Assembly: GCA_947588765.1 (NCBI GenBank)
Contig: CANPZG010000008.1
Span: forward strand, 1 to 40,200
Length of the DNA stretch: 40,200 nucleotides
Reading direction: 5' to 3'
Origin: an uncultured Bacilli bacterium
GTDB lineage: Bacteria; Bacillota_I; Bacilli_A; RF39; UBA660
A program made the translations under genes and the position numbers. Below, piece by piece: positions 16,248-36,701 of this stretch (position 1 is its first letter; every line of letters starts with the position of its first letter). Below the pieces are notes generated by a model. The model worked only from the letters and a program-made list of their open reading frames with translations, had not been told where the DNA came from and did not search any database.

Positions 16248-17090
16248 ATGATAATCGAAACACAACTTCCAACTTCTTTAGCAAATGATCTTTTATTTAA
16301 AGAAGTATTAACTCATCCGGATAATAGAGATAAGTTAATTTACTTTTTAGCTACTTTAACTAACCTTACGGAAGATTATTTAAAAAGTAATCTAAAGAAA
16401 GTATTATATGAAAATATATTTCTTAAAACTCAGATAAATGATAAAGCTTATCGAGGTGATGTAGTAATTGAATTAACCAATTTAAAAATTAATCTAGAAT
16501 GCTACAGTATCTTTGATAAAGCATCATTTATTAAATCATTGTCATATGTCCTAAGAATATATTCAACTGGTATGGAAAGAGGAAATAAAAAATATAATAA
16601 AATGGATAAAGTAATAGGAATAAACTTTATCGATAATGTAAATTATAAATTAATAGAAGATAAAGATTATTCAAAAGTAACATTAGTATATGAAAATAAA
16701 GCGATAACAGATGCAATAGAACTAGAATTTTATCGCCTTGACAAAATAAGGAATAAAACCTATAATGAGAGTGATAAGAAAATGAAATGGTTGAAGTTTA
16801 TAGGAGCCAAAGATTATGAAGAAAGGAAGACCATAGCGAAGGGGGACAAAAGATTAATGGAGTTAAATGAATGGGTAGAAGCCTATATAAATGATGAACA
16901 TACAAAAGATGTATATGGAAAATGGGCGGAACAAATTGCATTAGATAAAGGAATAAGAGTTGGAAAAGAAGATACTACAAGTACAATAGCTAAAGAAATG
17001 ATAAAACTTGGATTAGATAACAATGTTATTCATAAATCTACTAAATTATCCTTAAGAGAGATAAATGAGTTAAGAGAAGAAATAAGATAA
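16248..17090 (+). CDS. Rpn-family PD-(D/E)XK nuclease / putative transposase
   Basis: This 280-residue protein has the layout of the recombination-promoting nuclease family (PF12784-like). It opens with SLANDLLFKEVLTHPDN-R and continues to the nuclease core YRGDVVIELTNLKINLECYSIFDKASF, where D and E are candidate metal ligands. In most relatives the E is followed by a Q (ExQ); here it is ECY, so activity is uncertain. Then come RIYSTGMERG and a helical C-terminus with an EIR-type HTH-like end. Such proteins promote RecA-independent recombination in E. coli. The SD is a run of seven Gs. It stands alone. Confidence 0.75.
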   Translation: MIIETQLPTSLANDLLFKEVLTHPDNRDKLIYFLATLTNLTEDYLKSNLKKVLYENIFLKTQINDKAYRGDVVIELTNLKINLECYSIFDKASFIKSLSYVLRIYSTGMERGNKKYNKMDKVIGINFIDNVNYKLIEDKDYSKVTLVYENKAITDAIELEFYRLDKIRNKTYNESDKKMKWLKFIGAKDYEERKTIAKGDKRLMELNEWVEAYINDEHTKDVYGKWAEQIALDKGIRVGKEDTTSTIAKEMIKLGLDNNVIHKSTKLSLREINELREEIR

Positions 17091-26698: not shown

Positions 26699-26812
26699 AT
26701 GATTAGTTATCATTTAAGTGATTTAGAAAATAATGATTATGTTAAGCATACTGGCTCAAATAAAAAAGGTAAATGGGTTGTTATAAATAAAGGAAGTGAA
26801 AGAGATGACTAA
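26699..26812 (+). pseudogene. C-terminal wHTH remnant of an AlbA_2/RecG-like protein
   Basis: A 37-codon frame encodes MISYHLSDLENNDYVKHTG followed by SNKKGKWVVINKG. This looks like the last winged-helix segment of the AlbA_2/Schlafen ATP-binding family (T-I-x-YHL..L...GYI...GSNKKG.W). No upstream domain is present, so it is probably a relic. It overlaps the start of the next gene, so it could still act as a short coupling ORF. A broken copy of the same family's N-terminal part lies at 39241-39633. Confidence 0.4.
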
Positions 26813-27062
26813 AACAATAGGAAAAGTAATTGAAGTATATATTCCCGAACAATATCAAAATGGTGGATTATTAGATGTTATGGATAGAACTAATATTGGC
26901 TTTAAAATAAAAACACAAGATGGTGTAAAAGACATAGTTTTAGAGTCCAATGAAACTAATGCCCAAATAATGAAAAATGATTTAGTTTTAATGAAAGAAC
27001 AAGATATATCAGGTAAACATTTTATTGATATTGAAATTTATGATGGAGAAAGTTATGAATAA
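26805..27062 (+). CDS. small unknown protein, first gene of the HA-helicase module
   Basis: This 85-residue protein is mainly beta by pattern: GKVIEVYIPEQY, NIGFKIKTQDGVKDIVLES and NDLVLMKEQDISGKHFIDIEI alternate hydrophobic residues as in an OB-like or small barrel fold. No family is recognised. ATG 26805 follows the aggaag SD by 8 nt (in-frame GTG 26796 is weaker). Its end overlaps the helicase start by 8 nt (27055-27062), implying coupled translation and a shared function. Confidence 0.6.
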   Translation: MTKTIGKVIEVYIPEQYQNGGLLDVMDRTNIGFKIKTQDGVKDIVLESNETNAQIMKNDLVLMKEQDISGKHFIDIEIYDGESYE

Positions 27063-30000
27063 TAATAAAAATAATAATGAATTTCAAATAATAGGTTTAT
27101 ATGAGCATAATAGAAATAGTTATAAAAAGATAAAATCAGCCTTTGCAACAGGGGAAGATGTCGTGGGTATAGTTCATGCTACGGGAACAGGTAAATCCTA
27201 TAATGCCTTACAACTTGCATACGATAATAAAGATAAAAAAATTGTTTATGTGGTTCCATCTAATGGAATAATTGAACATATAAAAAAAATAATAACAGAT
27301 AATCCAAATTTAGAATTAAAAAGGGATTTTCCTAATTTAGAATTTAGAACTTATCATAGTTTTATCTCTTTAAGTAGAGAAGAGATAAGAAATATTAATT
27401 GTGATTTACTAATTCTTGATGAATTTCATCATATAGGAGCACCTATATGGGGAGCAAGAATTAATGCAATGATAGAAACTCATCCTAATATGAAAATATT
27501 TGGAATGACAGCTTATACGGTAAGAGATAGAGGTACGGCTTATGAAAGAGATATGGCTAATCCTCTAACTGAGGAATTATTTTCCCGTAAGATAGAGAGT
27601 AGATATGATTTATGTGATGCTATGATAGATGGTATACTTCCTAAACCAGTATATAAAAGTGCCTATATAAATTTAATTGGTTTAGAAAGTAAACTAGAAG
27701 AAAGTGTTCAAAAACTAGATACTTCTACTAAAGAATATCAAGAATATATGTCAATTTTAACTGATGTTAAAAGAAGAATTCATGAGGCCCCAAGCATACC
27801 TAATCTTTTAAGAAAAAATATAAAGCCAAATGGAAAATATATATATTTTTGTCCACCTTATGTAGAAGAAGGAACTAATGATATTGAAACAATTAAAAAT
27901 CAAGCACTTCTATGGTTTAAACAATTTGTTCCGGAAGAAGATATTGTTATTTATACTTCAACAAGTAAAATGGGGGAAGTTGGAAAACAAAATCGTGATG
28001 CTTTTTATGATGATGTTTCGCTAGATGGGGAAAAAGTTAATCATAAATTGCGAATAATGTTTGCTATAAATCAATATAACGAGGGAATTCATGCTCCTAA
28101 TATTGATGGTGTTATTATGGGTAGGGGTACAGCATCAGATATTGTCTATTTTGAACAATTAGGTAGAGCCTTAGCTGTTCGAGGAAATACTAAAGATATG
28201 TTTGAAGAATTAAAAAAACATTCAATAGAAGAATTAATAGAGATGTGTAAATCAAGAGATATTTCTGTTAAAGAAAATACACTTAAAGAAGAACTAATTG
28301 AAAAACTAATTGCCCCAGTAGTAATTGATTTAACTAATAACTATGAATTCATTAAAGAACTTGAAAATAATTTAAAAGATAGAATTAAAGGTATACAAAG
28401 TATAGGCTTAGGTAATCATAGAGATGTAAAAATAAAAGATGCCTCTTTTGATATTGAAATAGAGAATCAAGATTTATTTGAAATGTTAAAATATGTTGGT
28501 GATAGATTAACAAAGACGTGGGAAGATTATTATGAACTAGCTAAAGCATATTATGATCATTATGGAAATTTATTGATACCACATATTTTTAAAACTAATG
28601 ATGGTTATACTTATGATGAGAATGGAATTGTTAATCTTGGAATTTGGATAATGAACCAAAGAAAAAAATTTTTTAGTTTATCGCCTGAAAGGCAACAATT
28701 ATTACAAGCAATAGGATTTGTATTAAATGCTTTTGAAGCGCAATGGCATAAAAATTATGAACTAGCCAAAGCATACTATGATTATTACGGAAATTTATTG
28801 ATACCACAAATTTTTAAAACCGATGATGGTTGTACTTATGATGAGCAAGGTTCTATAAATCTCGGTACTTGGATAACTAACCAAAGAAAAAAATTTTTTA
28901 GTTTATCCTTTGAAAAGCAACAATTATTGCGAGCAATAGGCTTGGTATTAAAGCCTCAAGAAGAACAATGGAATCAAAATTATAAGTTAGCTAAAGCATA
29001 TTATGATTATTACGGAAATTTAGAAATTCCTTTAAAGTTTAAAACCAATGATGGTTATACTTATAATGAAAATGGAAAATCAACTCTTGGAATTTGGATA
29101 ACTACTCAAAGAAAAACTTTTTCTAATTTATCCTTTGAAAGGCAACAATTATTGCAAGCAATAGGTTTTGTACTAAAGCCTCATGAAGAACGATGGAACC
29201 GAAATTATGAACTAGCCAAAGCATATTATAAGCATTATGGAAATTTAGAAATTCCTCAAAGATTTAAAACCAATGATGGTTATACTTATGATGAAAATGG
29301 AAAAATAACTCTTGGAATTTGGATAAAGAACCAAAGGAAAACTTTTTCTAGTTTATCCCTTGAAAGGCAACAATTATTGCAAGCAATAGGTTTTGTATTA
29401 AAGCCTCATGAAGAACAATGGAACCAAAATTATGAACTAGCCAAAGCATATTATGAACATTATGGAAATTTATTGATACCACATACTTTTAAAACCAATG
29501 ATGGTTATACTTATGATGAAAATGGAATTGTTAATCTTGGAATTTGGTTATCTAACCAAAGGAAAACTTTTTCTGATTTATCGTCGGAACAACAAAAGCT
29601 ATTGCAAATGATAGGTTTTGTATTAAAACCTTTTGAAGAACAATGGAACCGAAATTATGAACTAGCCAAAGCATATTATGAGCATTATGGAAATTTAGAA
29701 ATTCCTCAAAGATATAAAACCAATGATGGTTATACTTATGATGAAAATGGAATGGTCAATCTTGGAGCTTGGATAAGTACCCAAAGATATAGCTGTGATA
29801 TCAAAAGCGAACGGGGAATATTGTTATGTAATATAGGTATGGTTTGGAATATAAAGAAAAATAAATTAGAAATAAATAATTTATGTACTCAATATAATAT
29901 AAATATCGAAAAAAACAAAACAATTCTTAGTCATATTTCCATTCAAGAGTTACAATCTAAAATTGAATTTCTTAAAGTACATAATATTCCAATTATAGAC

Positions 30001-30126
30001 GAAGATGATTTACTTATTGACATATTTTCTATGAGTAGTTATGATATGAAAGAAAAATATGGTTTATCATTAGAAGATTTAATAAGTGAATATTATATTA
30101 AAAATCAAAAGGATAAAGGTGTTTAA
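27055..30126 (+). CDS. superfamily 2 helicase with six helicase-associated (HA) repeats
   Basis: This protein has 1023 residues. The helicase core has Walker A HATGTGKS (41-48), a DEAH-box variant DEFH (about residue 121), FGMTAYT (motif III) and EQLGRALAVRG (motif VI). Between motif VI and PVVIDLTNNYEFIKELE is a SAP-like insert (about 385-418, IEELIEMCKSRDISV). Residues 488-932 are six HA domains (PF03457 type) of exactly 75 residues each, with W...YELAKAYY..YGNL.IP..FKT.DGYTY..L..WI..QR as the core. A helical tail follows. HA arrays are thought to bind nucleic acid. ATG 27055 has SD ggag. Phage or plasmid defence is an inference from context. Confidence 0.85.
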   Translation: MNNNKNNNEFQIIGLYEHNRNSYKKIKSAFATGEDVVGIVHATGTGKSYNALQLAYDNKDKKIVYVVPSNGIIEHIKKIITDNPNLELKRDFPNLEFRTYHSFISLSREEIRNINCDLLILDEFHHIGAPIWGARINAMIETHPNMKIFGMTAYTVRDRGTAYERDMANPLTEELFSRKIESRYDLCDAMIDGILPKPVYKSAYINLIGLESKLEESVQKLDTSTKEYQEYMSILTDVKRRIHEAPSIPNLLRKNIKPNGKYIYFCPPYVEEGTNDIETIKNQALLWFKQFVPEEDIVIYTSTSKMGEVGKQNRDAFYDDVSLDGEKVNHKLRIMFAINQYNEGIHAPNIDGVIMGRGTASDIVYFEQLGRALAVRGNTKDMFEELKKHSIEELIEMCKSRDISVKENTLKEELIEKLIAPVVIDLTNNYEFIKELENNLKDRIKGIQSIGLGNHRDVKIKDASFDIEIENQDLFEMLKYVGDRLTKTWEDYYELAKAYYDHYGNLLIPHIFKTNDGYTYDENGIVNLGIWIMNQRKKFFSLSPERQQLLQAIGFVLNAFEAQWHKNYELAKAYYDYYGNLLIPQIFKTDDGCTYDEQGSINLGTWITNQRKKFFSLSFEKQQLLRAIGLVLKPQEEQWNQNYKLAKAYYDYYGNLEIPLKFKTNDGYTYNENGKSTLGIWITTQRKTFSNLSFERQQLLQAIGFVLKPHEERWNRNYELAKAYYKHYGNLEIPQRFKTNDGYTYDENGKITLGIWIKNQRKTFSSLSLERQQLLQAIGFVLKPHEEQWNQNYELAKAYYEHYGNLLIPHTFKTNDGYTYDENGIVNLGIWLSNQRKTFSDLSSEQQKLLQMIGFVLKPFEEQWNRNYELAKAYYEHYGNLEIPQRYKTNDGYTYDENGMVNLGAWISTQRYSCDIKSERGILLCNIGMVWNIKKNKLEINNLCTQYNINIEKNKTILSHISIQELQSKIEFLKVHNIPIIDEDDLLIDIFSMSSYDMKEKYGLSLEDLISEYYIKNQKDKGV
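28516..29850 (+). repeat. tandem 225-bp coding repeats in the helicase
   Basis: Units begin at 28516, 28741, 28966, 29191, 29416 and 29641, each exactly 225 bp; the sixth degrades near 29790. Units 3-6 share long identical stretches at DNA level (for example aaaaccaatgatggttatac), which points to recent duplication or gene conversion and possible copy-number variation without frame loss. Confidence 0.9.
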
Positions 30127-30127
30127 T

Positions 30128-30451
30128 ATGTTTTTAGATAAATATTTAAACTCAACATATTTAGATTTAGTATATAGTAATTATGAAGAAAGCTATATAA
30201 ATTTATTAGATGAAGATAATTTTAATAAAGTTTATATGCTATTAAAGAATAATAATTTTTATTTTCTCGATGATGTTATCTTGAACTATTTAGAACTATT
30301 TGAAATTGAAGCAAGATATGTGCAGTTAGCAATTACTAAATTTAAAAATATTTTAGGCGAAGATTTTGTGAAACAAATAGGGAAAAATATGACATTAATT
30401 AATAAAATAATTGAGTTGGCACTTGATTATAGCGAAAAAGATGAAATGTAA
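30128..30451 (+). CDS. small helical protein, third gene of the HA-helicase module
   Basis: This 107-residue protein (MFLDKYLNSTYLDLVYSNYEE...) is Leu/Tyr/Asn-rich and all-helical by pattern, without a recognised domain. It starts 1 nt after the helicase stop, with SD aaaggtg inside the helicase end, and is closed by a strong terminator, so it belongs to the same transcript. It could be a partner or immunity subunit of the helicase; nothing in the sequence decides this. Confidence 0.6.
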   Translation: MFLDKYLNSTYLDLVYSNYEESYINLLDEDNFNKVYMLLKNNNFYFLDDVILNYLELFEIEARYVQLAITKFKNILGEDFVKQIGKNMTLINKIIELALDYSEKDEM

Positions 30452-30491
30452 AAAAATTATGAAAGATAAAGATAAACTTTCATAATTTTTT
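30451..30491 (+). terminator. strong terminator of the HA-helicase module
   Basis: aaaaaattatgaaag (30451-30465) pairs perfectly over 15 bp with ctttcataatttttt (30477-30491). The A-rich left arm also makes it usable from the tRNA side. Confidence 0.85.
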
Positions 30492-30519: not shown

Positions 30520-30593
30520 TGGAGCAGATAGCGAGAATTGAACTCGTAACTTAAGCTTGGGAAGCTTATATTTTACCATTAAACTATATCTGC
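30520..30593 (-). tRNA. tRNA-Gly, anticodon CCC
   Basis: The reverse strand folds as a full cloverleaf. Acceptor GCAGATA pairs with TATCTGC. The D-arm is GTTT...AAAT, the anticodon stem TAAGC/GCTTA with loop TTCCCAA, and the T-arm CGAG-TTCAATT-CTCG. Discriminator U73 (diagnostic of bacterial tRNA-Gly) is followed by an encoded CCA. The anticodon is CCC, reading GGG. There is an A-C mismatch at the base of the T-stem. Its 3' end faces the helicase module. Confidence 0.9.
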
Positions 30594-32501: not shown

Positions 32502-34049
32502 TTAAAATGGAAGGTCTATACAATTATCATTGAATGTTTTTACAATGTATTTTATAAAAGGAAGAAATAGTTCATCATCCTCTTTTATTTCTAAATATAA
32601 GTTATATAAATCAGAAAAATGTTTTTTGTCTATATAAGATTCTTCAAAGAACATACTATCATTATCATCATAGAAATCTGAAAATTTTACTTTATCATAA
32701 AATAACAATTCTTGTTGTTTCATTTGTATTCTTTCTAAAAACATTTTAATTTTTTCATTTGTAAAACGATTAGTTGTTTTAAAAGTTGGTATCTCATATT
32801 GATTTCCATATCTATCACTATCTATTGTAAAAGCAATATGTTGCATTATGTCTTCTAGTTGTTCTTTTATTTCTTTTTTGTCTTTTTTAATTACTTTTTT
32901 TGTGTTTACTTCACCAGAAGGAAGCAATTTACTATTTATATCTTTATATATTTCATCTATTGTTTGATATCTGTCACTTGGTTCATTAGCAATACATTTG
33001 TCTATAATATTATCTAATAATTCCATTCTTGGACCAGAGTACTTGTCTGTTATCTTTTTTCGTCTAGTACCTTTGCATGTTTCATTAAAAACTAGCCAAT
33101 ATATTATCTGACCTAAAGAATAAATATCTGCTGCTTTTGTTAACTCTTTTTTACTATCATTTTGTTCTGGGGCAGAAAACTCGTAGTTTGCTAATCTTTC
33201 ACTTTTTTGAGTATGGCCTGTCATATCATAAATATCAGAATTGTAACATGATATTCCAAAATCAGCAATATTAAGTCTTCCATTCTCATCTATTAATATA
33301 TTTTTTGGTTTTAAGTCTCTATGTATAATACCATTATCATGTATTTTTTTTAATGCTTGAGCTAGTTGGTCAAAATTAGATATTAATTCATCTTGGGATA
33401 TTTCATCTACATATTCAAGATGATTTGAATATTTCTTCATTACTATTATTGGCACTTTACAGTTATCCAAAACTATTTCTTCATAAAAATATTGCTTAAC
33501 TATTCCTTCATTATTATCTACACCAATTAGTACATTGAAAAATTCACACAAAAATCTATTCCTTTTATTTTTATCATTCTTTAATAAAAATTTAATGGCA
33601 ACATCATGATTGTTTAATTTTCCAAAATATACAATCCCATTACCACCAGCACTAGTTTCAGTTATTGAAATTTCAGTTATATTACCATAAAGAGTTTTTA
33701 TTGTATAATTATTTAACCTTAAATAGTCATTTAACTTCTTTTGTGTAAATACTTCTGTCTGAGTTGAAATATTAATTTTATTCTCAAGATAATCCATTAG
33801 AGGATAAAATGTTTCTTTTATTCTTTCACGACGTTCTTTATATCCACCAAATTTTTGCAATTGACTTCTATAATCATAAGAACGTTTTGTAAGTTTTATC
33901 TCAGGTGGAACATCTATATTTGCATCATTAAACATTTTTTTAATTTTTCTTATATTTTCTGAAAAAATTTTTTCATCAATACTGATGTTGCAATAAGTTG
34001 CTAAATCTTCAAGTACATCTATAAAATCTTGTAATTCATTAATATTCAT
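32502..34049 (-). CDS. Hanks-type Ser/Thr protein kinase with extra N- and C-terminal domains
   Basis: About 515 residues. The kinase domain (about 125-370) has a glycine loop SAGGNGIVYFG, catalytic Lys in VAIKF (K153), HRDLKPKN (HRD 243-245), DFG (263-265) and SAPEQ (APE). The N-terminal 120 residues are a helical domain of unknown kind, and the C-terminal 140 are also helical. There is no membrane helix or PASTA repeat, so this is a soluble kinase unlike PrkC/StkP. It lies downstream of an ASCH gene and beside a restriction-modification pair, which suggests a role in stress or phage response. The start is ambiguous: ATG 34049 is 13 nt from its SD, while GTG 34058 is 4 nt away. Confidence 0.8.
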   Translation of the reverse strand: MNINELQDFIDVLEDLATYCNISIDEKIFSENIRKIKKMFNDANIDVPPEIKLTKRSYDYRSQLQKFGGYKERRERIKETFYPLMDYLENKINISTQTEVFTQKKLNDYLRLNNYTIKTLYGNITEISITETSAGGNGIVYFGKLNNHDVAIKFLLKNDKNKRNRFLCEFFNVLIGVDNNEGIVKQYFYEEIVLDNCKVPIIVMKKYSNHLEYVDEISQDELISNFDQLAQALKKIHDNGIIHRDLKPKNILIDENGRLNIADFGISCYNSDIYDMTGHTQKSERLANYEFSAPEQNDSKKELTKAADIYSLGQIIYWLVFNETCKGTRRKKITDKYSGPRMELLDNIIDKCIANEPSDRYQTIDEIYKDINSKLLPSGEVNTKKVIKKDKKEIKEQLEDIMQHIAFTIDSDRYGNQYEIPTFKTTNRFTNEKIKMFLERIQMKQQELLFYDKVKFSDFYDDNDSMFFEESYIDKKHFSDLYNLYLEIKEDDELFLPFIKYIVKTFNDNCIDLPF

Positions 34050-34131
34050 AAAAACCACACATTCCTTTCACTTCATTCAAGGCTCACATAGTCATGAAAA
34101 AGATTATTTTTCAGACTAACCTCCTAAATAT

Positions 34132-34527
34132 TTATTTAATATTTTCTTCATCTAAATCTATATTCCATAATCCCAGTTGTCCGTTTACTTCTTTATTATA
34201 ATCTATCTTTTTTATGTTGTTTAATTTCCATGCATAACCAGTTCTAAATTTGTTTCCATATGCGATGTTATTTTCAGCTATTATTTTTTTATTTAATTTG
34301 TCGTCTAATTCTAAACAATCTTCTATTTCAACAATGGCCAAAATCCTTCTTGAAGGAAATTCTAAATTCATATTCTCATATTTTTTCATATCTTCTTTAT
34401 CTATTCCAGATCCAGCATGAATTAACACTTTTCCTCTGTATTTAGTTTTCCAAGATCTAAATTCATATTTTTTTATTCCTTCTGCAACTAAAGTCGCCCA
34501 TGGTTGCCTTAATGTTAATACCTTCAA
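34132..34527 (-). CDS. ASCH-domain protein
   Basis: 131 residues. KVLTLRQPWATLVAEGIKKYEFRSW followed by YRGKVLIHAG is the ASCH signature (LxLRQPWA.LI..G.K..E.R.W), a PUA-like beta-barrel that binds RNA or modified nucleosides; some members are N4-acetylcytidine amidohydrolases. The start is judged TTG 34527, five bases after SD ggtga; the in-frame GTG 34536 is part of that SD. It lies between the kinase (downstream, same strand) and the divergent restriction gene. Confidence 0.75.
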   Translation of the reverse strand: MKVLTLRQPWATLVAEGIKKYEFRSWKTKYRGKVLIHAGSGIDKEDMKKYENMNLEFPSRRILAIVEIEDCLELDDKLNKKIIAENNIAYGNKFRTGYAWKLNNIKKIDYNKEVNGQLGLWNIDLDEENIK

Positions 34528-34543
34528 TTTAATCACCAGTACA

Positions 34544-34582
34544 ATTATAACATATAAATAATAAAATATTTTGTGATATAAT
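34544..34582. promoter_or_regulatory. divergent promoters for the ASCH and restriction genes
   Basis: Plus strand: TGATATAAT (34574-34582), then aggagg and ATG 34602. Minus strand: TATAAT (attata at 34544-34549). The minus transcript would start near 34537, leaving almost no leader before the SD. The two operons share 74 nt. Confidence 0.55.
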
Positions 34583-34601
34583 GATTACAAGGAGGTATTA
34601 T

Positions 34602-35378
34602 ATGCAAACAGAACAAGAAATAATTGATGAACTTTTAACTAAATTTACAGAAATTGCTTGTAAGGGCTGGATTGAGAGCCATAGACAGCACAATACAGGT
34701 ATTGGAAAAACTTTTGAAGATTTACTAGAAAAAGTAGAAGATAATATAGGAGATCCTGATTATAAAGGCATTGAATTAAAGACTCATAGATCAAATAGTA
34801 ATTCATTTACAACTTTATTTACTGCTTGTCCAGATGGGCCAAAACCTAGCGAGAATACAAGATTAAGAGAAACATATGGTGAAATTGATGAAAAATCCGG
34901 ATTAAAAACTCTTCATACATCTATATTTGCCACTAGAAAGACAATTTATTTTAATAAAAATAAGTTTCAAATGGAGGTAAATAAAGATGACAAAAAAATT
35001 TATTTACTTGTATTTGATATGGATGATAACTTAATTGAAAAAATTACATTTTGGACTTTTGAATCACTTAACAAGAAATTGGAAAGAAAATTAAAAATTT
35101 TAGCTTTAGTAGATAGTAAAAGTAGAAAAGAAAACGGAAAAGAATTATTCAAATATGATAAAATAACCATATGTAAATTTAAAAATTTTGATAAATTCTT
35201 AGATGCCATAAGTAATGGAAAAATTATGCTAGATATTAGAATAGGTGTTTATAAAAGTGGTAAATACTATGGCAAAACACATGATCATGGAACTGGATTT
35301 AGAATTAAGGAATCTGATTTAGAATGTTTATATGATATTTTTGAACTAAGAAGTTTCGAAGAACAAAAGGAAGATTAA
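34602..35378 (+). CDS. MvaI/BcnI-family type II restriction endonuclease
   Basis: This 258-residue protein has the family's GIGKTFEDLLEKVEDN...DPDYKGIELKTHRSNS. The D(x)ELK triad of a PD-(D/E)XK nuclease corresponds to MvaI/BcnI (...GNTLE..LG...N....D..G.ELK..R). MvaI and BcnI are monomeric nickase-like enzymes cutting CCWGG and CCSGG; the exact site here is unknown. A later HDHGTGFRI may contribute to the fold. ATG 34602 has a strong aggagg SD. The gene converges on the methyltransferase and abuts it exactly. Confidence 0.85.
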   Translation: MQTEQEIIDELLTKFTEIACKGWIESHRQHNTGIGKTFEDLLEKVEDNIGDPDYKGIELKTHRSNSNSFTTLFTACPDGPKPSENTRLRETYGEIDEKSGLKTLHTSIFATRKTIYFNKNKFQMEVNKDDKKIYLLVFDMDDNLIEKITFWTFESLNKKLERKLKILALVDSKSRKENGKELFKYDKITICKFKNFDKFLDAISNGKIMLDIRIGVYKSGKYYGKTHDHGTGFRIKESDLECLYDIFELRSFEEQKED

Positions 35379-35392
35379 TCAATCTTCCTTTT
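35365..35392. terminator. bidirectional terminator formed by the restriction and methylase gene ends
   Basis: aaaaggaagatt (35365-35376) pairs perfectly with aatcttcctttt (35381-35392) around a 4-nt loop. Both stop codons lie in or beside it. Confidence 0.8.
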
Positions 35393-36614
35393 TCATTATA
35401 ACAATATATTCATTGGTCATTGTAGAAACAGTATTGCCTGTTTTATTAGTTGGAGATGTTTTTTTAGGTTGTCTTTTATTTGGTATATTTCTTATTATTG
35501 TCTCAACATGCTTAAATCCATTATTTTCAAATACATATCTTGTAAATTCATCTGTAGGTAATTCAATATTACTTACACGTCTATTACCAACTACATAGGC
35601 ACAAATACCATGATTTTTAACAATTTTGCTTACATTTTCTATTGATTTTTTATAATCTCGATAAAATGACCATATTTCTTTAGCCCTTTTTGGCTTTTCT
35701 ACAGCTATTTGCTGAATAATGTCATCCAATACTTTAAAACCGGTTTCCTGAATATCTGTCGTTTTGCCACCCATTAATTTTTTATCCAGTTTTCTCGCAT
35801 CCTCTATACCAAGCCATTCATTTGATAAAGTAGAAAATTGACCATAAGCTACAGTTGTACCGCTATCTCCATATGGTGGGGAAGTAATTACAATATCGAC
35901 AGAATTTTCTTGTATTAATTCATTGGGTATTTCTTCTGAAGAGTTGAAATTATAAACTTCATGATTGAATAATTTGTTTTTCTTTTCAAACTCTTTATAA
36001 CCATTTATATTTCTCATTAATTTTTCTGTAAATAATTTTATAGTATTTGGATTCCAATTATTAATTTTTTCTTTTGGAATTCTGTATAACTTAAATTCAC
36101 CATTTCTTGTTAAGGAAACTTCCCTTAATGTTTCACTAAACGGAACTAGAAGGAAGTCTTTTTCATCTTGATTATCAATTGAATCAATAAAGTCTTTTAT
36201 AAACATCAAATCAACTATTTGTTTTTCTTTAAACCAAAAATCTAAATTATTAATATTTGGTCGTTGATACACTTTTATATTTTTATTTTTCGTTAACTTT
36301 TCAAAATTGTTTAAAAGCTTTATAATATTGTTGATGTTAACTTTAGTAACTTTAGATTTTGATATTAATCTTGCTAATGGATTTAAATCAGTCCCAATGC
36401 ATTTTAAACCAACTAAGGATCCCTCAACAAGTGAAGTACCTGTGCCACAATAAGGATCAAATAAAATTTTCATATCATTATTTTTATATCTACTTAATAT
36501 TTCGCGTGCTACTTGAGGAATCATCATCGCCGGATATATGTGAAATGAATGAGTATATTCTTTTGTATCTGCTCCAATAAAATCCCAATAATTATCTACA
36601 TACTTTTTTCCCAT
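35379..36614 (-). CDS. amino-DNA methyltransferase of the restriction-modification pair
   Basis: About 411 residues. Motif I is FDPYCGTGTSLVEG and the catalytic motif IV TSPPYGDSG; SPPY is usual for N4-cytosine or N6-adenine methylases, and N4C would fit MvaI/BcnI-type systems. C-terminal NEYIVIMKKED closes the fold. The start ATG 36614 is chosen because an SD (gaggcg) lies 6 nt upstream and the extended -10 (36637-36645) lies between it and the further ATGs at 36659 and 36668. The gene converges with the nuclease gene rather than sharing an operon. Confidence 0.85.
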   Translation of the reverse strand: MGKKYVDNYWDFIGADTKEYTHSFHIYPAMMIPQVAREILSRYKNNDMKILFDPYCGTGTSLVEGSLVGLKCIGTDLNPLARLISKSKVTKVNINNIIKLLNNFEKLTKNKNIKVYQRPNINNLDFWFKEKQIVDLMFIKDFIDSIDNQDEKDFLLVPFSETLREVSLTRNGEFKLYRIPKEKINNWNPNTIKLFTEKLMRNINGYKEFEKKNKLFNHEVYNFNSSEEIPNELIQENSVDIVITSPPYGDSGTTVAYGQFSTLSNEWLGIEDARKLDKKLMGGKTTDIQETGFKVLDDIIQQIAVEKPKRAKEIWSFYRDYKKSIENVSKIVKNHGICAYVVGNRRVSNIELPTDEFTRYVFENNGFKHVETIIRNIPNKRQPKKTSPTNKTGNTVSTMTNEYIVIMKKED

Positions 36615-36636
36615 TTTATTCGCCTCACTAAAATAT

Positions 36637-36645
36637 ATTATATCA
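36637..36645 (-). promoter_or_regulatory. extended -10 promoter of the methyltransferase gene
   Basis: The reverse strand reads TGATATAAT, identical to three other promoter elements in the window. It places the RNA start near 36631, upstream of the SD at 36621-36626. Confidence 0.55.
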
Positions 36646-36701
36646 TAAGAACTAGGCATTTTAATCATCTTATTTTATAGTTCCATGTCATATTTTTCTT
36701 A

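Follow-up and report, generated by a model that had tools for sequence, protein, structure and literature searches.

A three-gene operon joining an SF2 helicase to an evolvable HA-repeat array, a candidate modular reader of nucleic acid

The A-B-C unit and its helicase

Here we describe a unit of three genes, A, B and C, on the forward strand of a 40,200-nucleotide stretch of DNA from an uncultured Bacilli bacterium (contig CANPZG010000008.1; this whole stretch is the window). Gene A (26805..27062, ATG at 26805, stop at 27062) encodes a beta-rich protein of 85 residues, gene B (27055..30126, ATG at 27055, stop at 30126) a 1023-residue SF2 helicase with an array of HA repeats, and gene C (30128..30451, ATG at 30128, stop at 30451) a helical protein of 107 residues. 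A and B overlap by 8 nt (ATGAATAA) and 1 nt separates B from C, which agrees in every coordinate with the layout proposed in the initial annotation of this DNA. The strong terminator that it placed at the end of the unit is also there, as a hairpin at 30451..30491 of the same strand with a 15-bp AT-rich stem and a U-rich tail (-12 kcal/mol, z -3.4). This hairpin is absent from the output of a consensus terminator scan because its stem is AT-rich. The loci and genomes compared below carry L- and G-numbers, respectively, and all of the loci are metagenome-assembled.

The SF2 core of B (residues 14-380, 27094..28194) is recognized by Pfam as ResIII (7e-12) and DEAD (1e-6) and holds Walker A ATGTGKS at 42, DEFH at 122 and QLGRAL at 368. 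Six HA repeats (PF03457), together scoring 1.4e-84 and lying over the curated cut-off, follow at a spacing of exactly 75 residues, as first annotated. B is therefore an HA-repeat SF2 helicase, and a genome-wide search finds its HA repeats to be the only ones in the 1.27-Mb genome. With the residues at the seven positions treated as selected in the next section, the repeats are repeat 1 (residues 489-563, 28519..28743, HIIMNKK), repeat 2 (564-638, 28744..28968, QITTNKK), repeat 3 (639-713, 28969..29193, LKITTKT), repeat 4 (714-788, 29194..29418, QRIKNKT), repeat 5 (789-863, 29419..29643, HTISNKT) and repeat 6 (864-932, 29644..29850, QRASTYS). The protein ends in a domain, here called Bct (residues 936-1023 plus the stop, 29860..30126), that is shared with unrelated proteins made of 38-residue repeats. 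Between core and array, after motif VI, lies the segment that had been called SAP-like (residues 381-420, 28195..28314). It is conserved in every close relative and is the hallmark of the subfamily that has gene A, but its name is less secure: SAP (0.03) and Rho_N (0.07) matches in the window, and a Rho_N match of 5.6e-4 in a relative, all fall below the Pfam cut-offs (14.4 bits against 23.9 for SAP; 13.5-20.3 against 24.9 for Rho_N), and we refer to it as SAP/Rho_N-like.

Among solved structures, RadD (6jde, 7r7j and 8h5y) is one of the best matches of the B core, with many SF2 helicases scoring alike against a weak core model. The HA units are modeled well by AlphaFold2 (AF2), with a predicted local distance difference test (pLDDT) score of about 75-91, and their predicted fold starts with a long helix, passes through a hairpin and ends in two more helices. 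A sequence search of B against solved structures gave 2kta, a putative helicase domain, as the sole and weak HA match (0.51); the fold search of B is uninformative on solved relatives of the HA fold, since mainly the helicase part was tested.

Searches of Pfam, NCBIfam and PADLOC assign neither A nor C to a family, and PHROGs gave nothing notable, in line with the first impression, in which both went unrecognized. Had the two small genes been missing elsewhere, B would have been a lone helicase gene; this is not the case, as dozens of loci have them alongside B. Among the loci with the SAP/Rho_N-like segment and an intact 5' end of B, mapping with hidden Markov models (HMMs) places A immediately in front of B in every case but two, usually with an overlap. 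C is present only behind a B that ends in Bct, and is missing where the helicase has a different C-terminus (e.g., L011, L012, L017, L141 and L147). A thus has the look of an obligate partner of B, and A and C together are its dedicated partners. The AF2 model of A has a pLDDT of 49 and gave no meaningful match in a structure search; with low confidence, its predicted strand order (b-b-b-a-b-b) is OB-fold-like. Behind one B-family helicase that lacks Bct and C there is a HopA1-like protein (L011:9392-10675; Pfam 1.6e-6).

Turnover and diversifying selection in the HA array

The 191 HA repeats collected for this analysis come mostly in arrays of 4-8 copies per protein. Inner repeats are often closer to other repeats of the same protein than to those of relatives whose core is 84% identical. 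The cores of L011 and L012 are 96.4% identical while their arrays are only about 61-68% alike, and L018 and L128 have 90% of the ordinary repeat positions in common but 0 of the 7 key positions. Two loci, L143 (7395-14075) and L145 (7799-14270), each have a tandem pair of A-B type helicases closed by a single C, and can be regarded as natural array-swap pairs in that the cores are near-identical and the HA codes differ; in L143 the cores are 98.6% identical, with at most 3 of the 7 key residues common per best-matched repeat. In these comparisons the HA array evolves like a specificity region, through changes in copy number and array swaps between near-identical cores.

The ratio of nonsynonymous to synonymous differences (pN/pS) was obtained by simple counting, with repeats of the same protein compared in pairs (21 proteins; nucleotide identity 80-98%). 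It exceeds 1 only at positions 41 (1.77), 22 (1.73), 44 (1.47), 45 (1.36), 49 (1.29), 48 (1.28) and 23 (1.25); the next-highest position reaches 0.88 and structural positions lie near 0. Bootstrap intervals exclude 1 for positions 41, 22, 44 and 45, and split-half cross-validation over proteins gave a corrected dN/dS of 1.55 (5-95%: 1.06-2.05) versus 0.25 at the other positions. An artefact of AT bias was considered and rejected, as biased mutation models are insufficient to account for the signal: under AT-biased models the pooled dN/dS at the seven positions is 1.2-2.4. The 38-residue repeats served as a control for the counting method, and similar counting put only 1 of their 34 positions above 1, so that they were dropped as a case of positive selection. 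The HA array therefore has what would be expected of a modular reader, namely few hypervariable positions per conserved unit, under diversifying selection.

An ordinary accessory repair helicase of the RadD kind, whose array drifts neutrally through slippage, would account for the RadD likeness of the core and for the changes in the array, tandem repeats being prone to slippage. We consider this improbable. Selection for change is confined to 7 of 69 repeat positions with the rest strongly constrained, which disfavors neutral drift, and such a helicase would not be expected to have dedicated partners such as A and C.

In the AF2 model, positions 41, 44, 45 and 48 are residues i, i+3, i+4 and i+7 of the second helix (755, 758, 759 and 762 in repeat 4). 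Acidic residues (D/E) make up 3.4% at the seven positions compared with 30% at other variable positions, and 69% of the residues there are K/R/H/N/Q/S/T. This depletion extends to the HA arrays of Ruminococcus, Aneurinibacillus and distant family members, with 4.5% acidic residues at the five helix positions tested versus 30% elsewhere. Judged from these sequence features, it is quite likely that the HA array is a modular reader of nucleic acid. Alternatively, the array could sense a fast-evolving protein, such as a phage protein, in the manner of LRR or TPR repeats, with the helicase as effector. Protein sensing would also fit the array swaps and the diversifying selection seen on one face, and hydrophobic residues are tolerated at some selected positions (31% I/L/V/M/A/F/W at position 41). 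However, the selected positions are precisely those that are nearly free of acidic residues and rich in K/R/N/Q/S/T/H, and the array is fused to an SF2 motor and to the SAP/Rho_N-like segment. Both features favor nucleic acid, and we find the protein sensor unlikely.

Distribution, transfer and the Bct-C module

A scan of bacterial genomes yielded 15 loci, to which searches of related genomes added more. At the similarity level searched, the unit is patchy, with 26 of 386 genomes of the family carrying it. Beyond the family, at E 1e-60, a search of 395 genomes of the class returned family members only, and a search of 392 genomes of the phylum returned the window only. The B core of the window is 83-87% identical to that of seven genomes from other genera whose GyrA is 58-66% identical, while in a genome of the same genus (G011) B is 53-55% and GyrA 74% identical. 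Moreover, there is an empty site: gerKA and wecG adjoin in G021 with about 50 to 100 bases between them (L172), and the unit is inserted between the same two genes in G020 and G024 (L083/L084). No direct repeats are evident at this site.

The flanks of the unit differ in each lineage. Most of the 110 genes in these flanks have housekeeping roles, an enrichment in defence genes is not visible, and 'GajB' matches among them turned out to be UvrD-type helicases. In the window, the neighbors include a tRNA-Gly(ccc) on the minus strand (30520-30593), a methyltransferase, an ABC transporter and a restriction cluster. The tRNA and the restriction cluster had been taken as a clue to defence, which fails here as the neighbors of the relatives are entirely different. 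With the unit patchy, transferred, flanked by unrelated housekeeping genes and matched by an empty site, the presence of the tRNA, the methyltransferase and the restriction cluster beside it is incidental, and the neighborhood as a whole was rejected as evidence. What stands of the proposed 'defence or mobile-DNA system' is a real, unnamed and mobile module, and any inference of defence now rests on horizontal transfer and diversifying selection. These patterns indicate that A-B-C is a stand-alone operon that has apparently been transferred horizontally, moving between gut bacteria and across genera. In one further case, L012 and L013, the helicase genes are one base apart in metagenome-assembled genomes labeled Bacilli and Clostridia; their near-identity reflects either mis-binning or very recent transfer.

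Could the unit itself be a selfish or mobile element? Its insertion places vary, an empty site exists and it has passed between genera. It nevertheless has no integrase, transposase or terminal repeats, and appears, as far as seen, to be carried rather than self-moving; no integrase or transposase is common to the loci, and a serine recombinase lies near the unit in L012 only. We hold this to be very improbable. A viral origin was likewise rejected on searches of viral contigs and of a phage collection, the latter giving a single helicase match at 28%.

A 37-codon remnant of a winged-helix gene, from its 3' end, lies upstream of A and overlaps it by 8 nt (26699..26812 of the forward strand). 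The same remnant precedes A in L009 (81%; L009:1-151) and L019 (70%; L019:5642-5755) and is thus common to three units at different places, and it may be what is left of a decayed ancestral fourth gene. Its relative in the same genome, L191 (436 residues), has by eye the look of an AlbA_2-type ATP-binding protein. Downstream, an RNase J gene directly follows C in three genomes (L140, L145 and L149), which is probably shared synteny within one lineage.

The Bct-C pair is not limited to HA arrays. In L088-L094 it also ends arrays of 8-17 copies of a 38-residue repeat with the pattern YEEIKKILxMPEWxDPKYQSLLTPxIW. These MPEW-type repeat proteins, which end in Bct and have a C-like gene behind them (L088:7751-9546, L089:5360-7515, L090:4999-6344, L092:3900-6753, L093:7245-8169 and L094:6978-7753), are unnamed and have no genuine Pfam match. 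Profile comparison of the two settings gave 98% probability (E 2.7e-13) for Bct and 99.4% (E 4.6e-21) for C. Because the pair stands behind two unrelated arrays, it likely does the same job in both. C and Bct cross-match in iterated HMM searches, with clean profiles giving C at most a 31% probability of being a copy of Bct. In the 38-residue repeats, a single site behind 'IW' is hypervariable, with N, Q, H, S, R, L, A or T there and acidic residues almost absent from it; these repeats are possibly a second reading array.

These proteins bear on the possibility that A-B-C is an RNA- or DNA-binding regulator of host genes that follows the logic of PPR or OPR proteins and moved as an accessory gene. 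The 38-residue arrays lie beside prfA/prmC, polA/mutM and pnp, and their MPEW motif resembles the 'PPPEW' signature of OPR proteins (PMC8635915), a likeness from which homology does not follow. Patchy presence and transfer between genera would be unexpected for the control of conserved host genes, though, as would selection for change at the reading positions, and we regard a host regulator as rather unlikely.

A proposed mechanism and known systems

How might such a unit work? B would be a RadD-like SF2 ATPase or translocase with the HA array as its specificity region. Contact with nucleic acid, DNA or RNA, would be made by positions 41, 44, 45, 48 and 49 on the exposed side of the second helix and by positions 22-23, which precede the strand, so that a string of 4-8 HA units could read an extended sequence, and the target could be re-tuned by tandem duplication, array exchange and point changes at the seven positions. 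The most likely use would be recognition of a specific foreign nucleic acid, from phage or plasmid, which the motor would then remodel or keep from being used. A would probably assist the motor, perhaps as a small nucleic-acid-binding subunit of OB-like type, and C probably docks on Bct, coupling recognition to output. The motor, the array and the way in which the array evolves fit a protein-guided sequence reader carried as an accessory gene. We prefer a role in genetic conflict, which is probable, because such selection plus transfer usually stems from conflict with phages or plasmids; defence in the strict sense falls slightly short of an even bet. For the whole, a transferred operon in which an HA-array reader on a RadD-like motor is aimed at foreign nucleic acid, we would put the probability at about 50%.

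Several points weigh against this reading. Mis-binning can mimic transfer, given that every locus is metagenome-assembled. The dN/dS values come from counting in place of codon models, and the interval under the most conservative mutation model is 0.97-1.45. In the one near-identical pair, L083/L084, all 42 key residues are the same in both, and the AF2 model of the helicase core is poor. No nuclease or other killing domain is found in A, B or C, and no target sequence is shown. When viral contigs were scanned with B, A and C, no relative turned up and hence no direct tie to phage, and judging by the 110 neighbors the unit is not associated with defence islands, the restriction cluster of the window being the exception.

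The closest known proteins are the HA-repeat helicases of PF03457, such as the plasmid proteins of R. albus (pRUMAL01/02) and Aneurinibacillus, in which an HA array likewise follows an SF2 core. Their cores are 31-32% identical to that of B, and their selected helix positions are acid-poor, as in B. R. albus also has two HA helicases in tandem whose N-terminal halves are 82.5% identical. In distant HA/SF2 helicases of the same family (L152-L166), unlike A-B-C, neither the SAP/Rho_N-like segment nor A and C is seen. No functional study of HA repeats was found in the open-access literature. RadD, an SF2 DNA repair helicase, is among the best fold matches of the B core, the models overlapping well over the first RecA domain only, and we know of no HA array, A or C in RadD. 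The initial annotation saw no obvious named system here, and PADLOC agrees: no model matches A or C, and B has only a weak local helicase match (2.5e-7, residues 329-383) to mREase_IV, the model of a type IV methyl-directed restriction enzyme. This match spans 55 of 945 model positions, and B has no nuclease or modified-base reader.

If the preferred reading is true, a repeat that is common in Pfam yet unstudied would be a candidate for a programmable module that binds DNA or RNA, with putative reading positions (22, 23, 41, 44, 45, 48 and 49) already named and natural variants on hand for working out the code, and some bacteria would carry mobile protein-guided recognition systems re-tuned through repeat turnover. 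Re-tuning of this kind is best known from the PRDM9 and KRAB zinc fingers of animals. PRDM9 zinc fingers form a tandem array that turns over and is positively selected at its base-reading positions (PMC3890296); the HA array is similar in both respects and differs in its unrelated fold and in being zinc-free, bacterial and fused to a helicase. The HsdS subunit of Type I restriction systems combines a conserved core with an exchangeable specificity part (PMC7394358, PMC5399793), much as B does, whereas A-B-C has no methylase or restriction subunit and the specificity part of B takes the form of repeats within the motor protein itself. In A-B-C an evolvable protein array would aim the motor at foreign sequences, a task that falls to a guide RNA or to fixed restriction sites in other systems. 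Only tentatively do we propose that HA repeats are an unrecognized class of modular reader with a seven-residue code and that A-B-C is a new genetic-conflict system built on them.

Two other features of the window deserve mention. The defence cluster downstream (32502-36668) consists of a Ser/Thr kinase (PD-T4-6-like), an ASCH protein, an MvaI/BcnI-type endonuclease and a DNA methyltransferase, and is separate from and not linked to A-B-C. At 16248-17090, a gene product has by eye the look of an Rpn/PD-(D/E)XK-type transposase-family nuclease, with a 53% homologue in L079.

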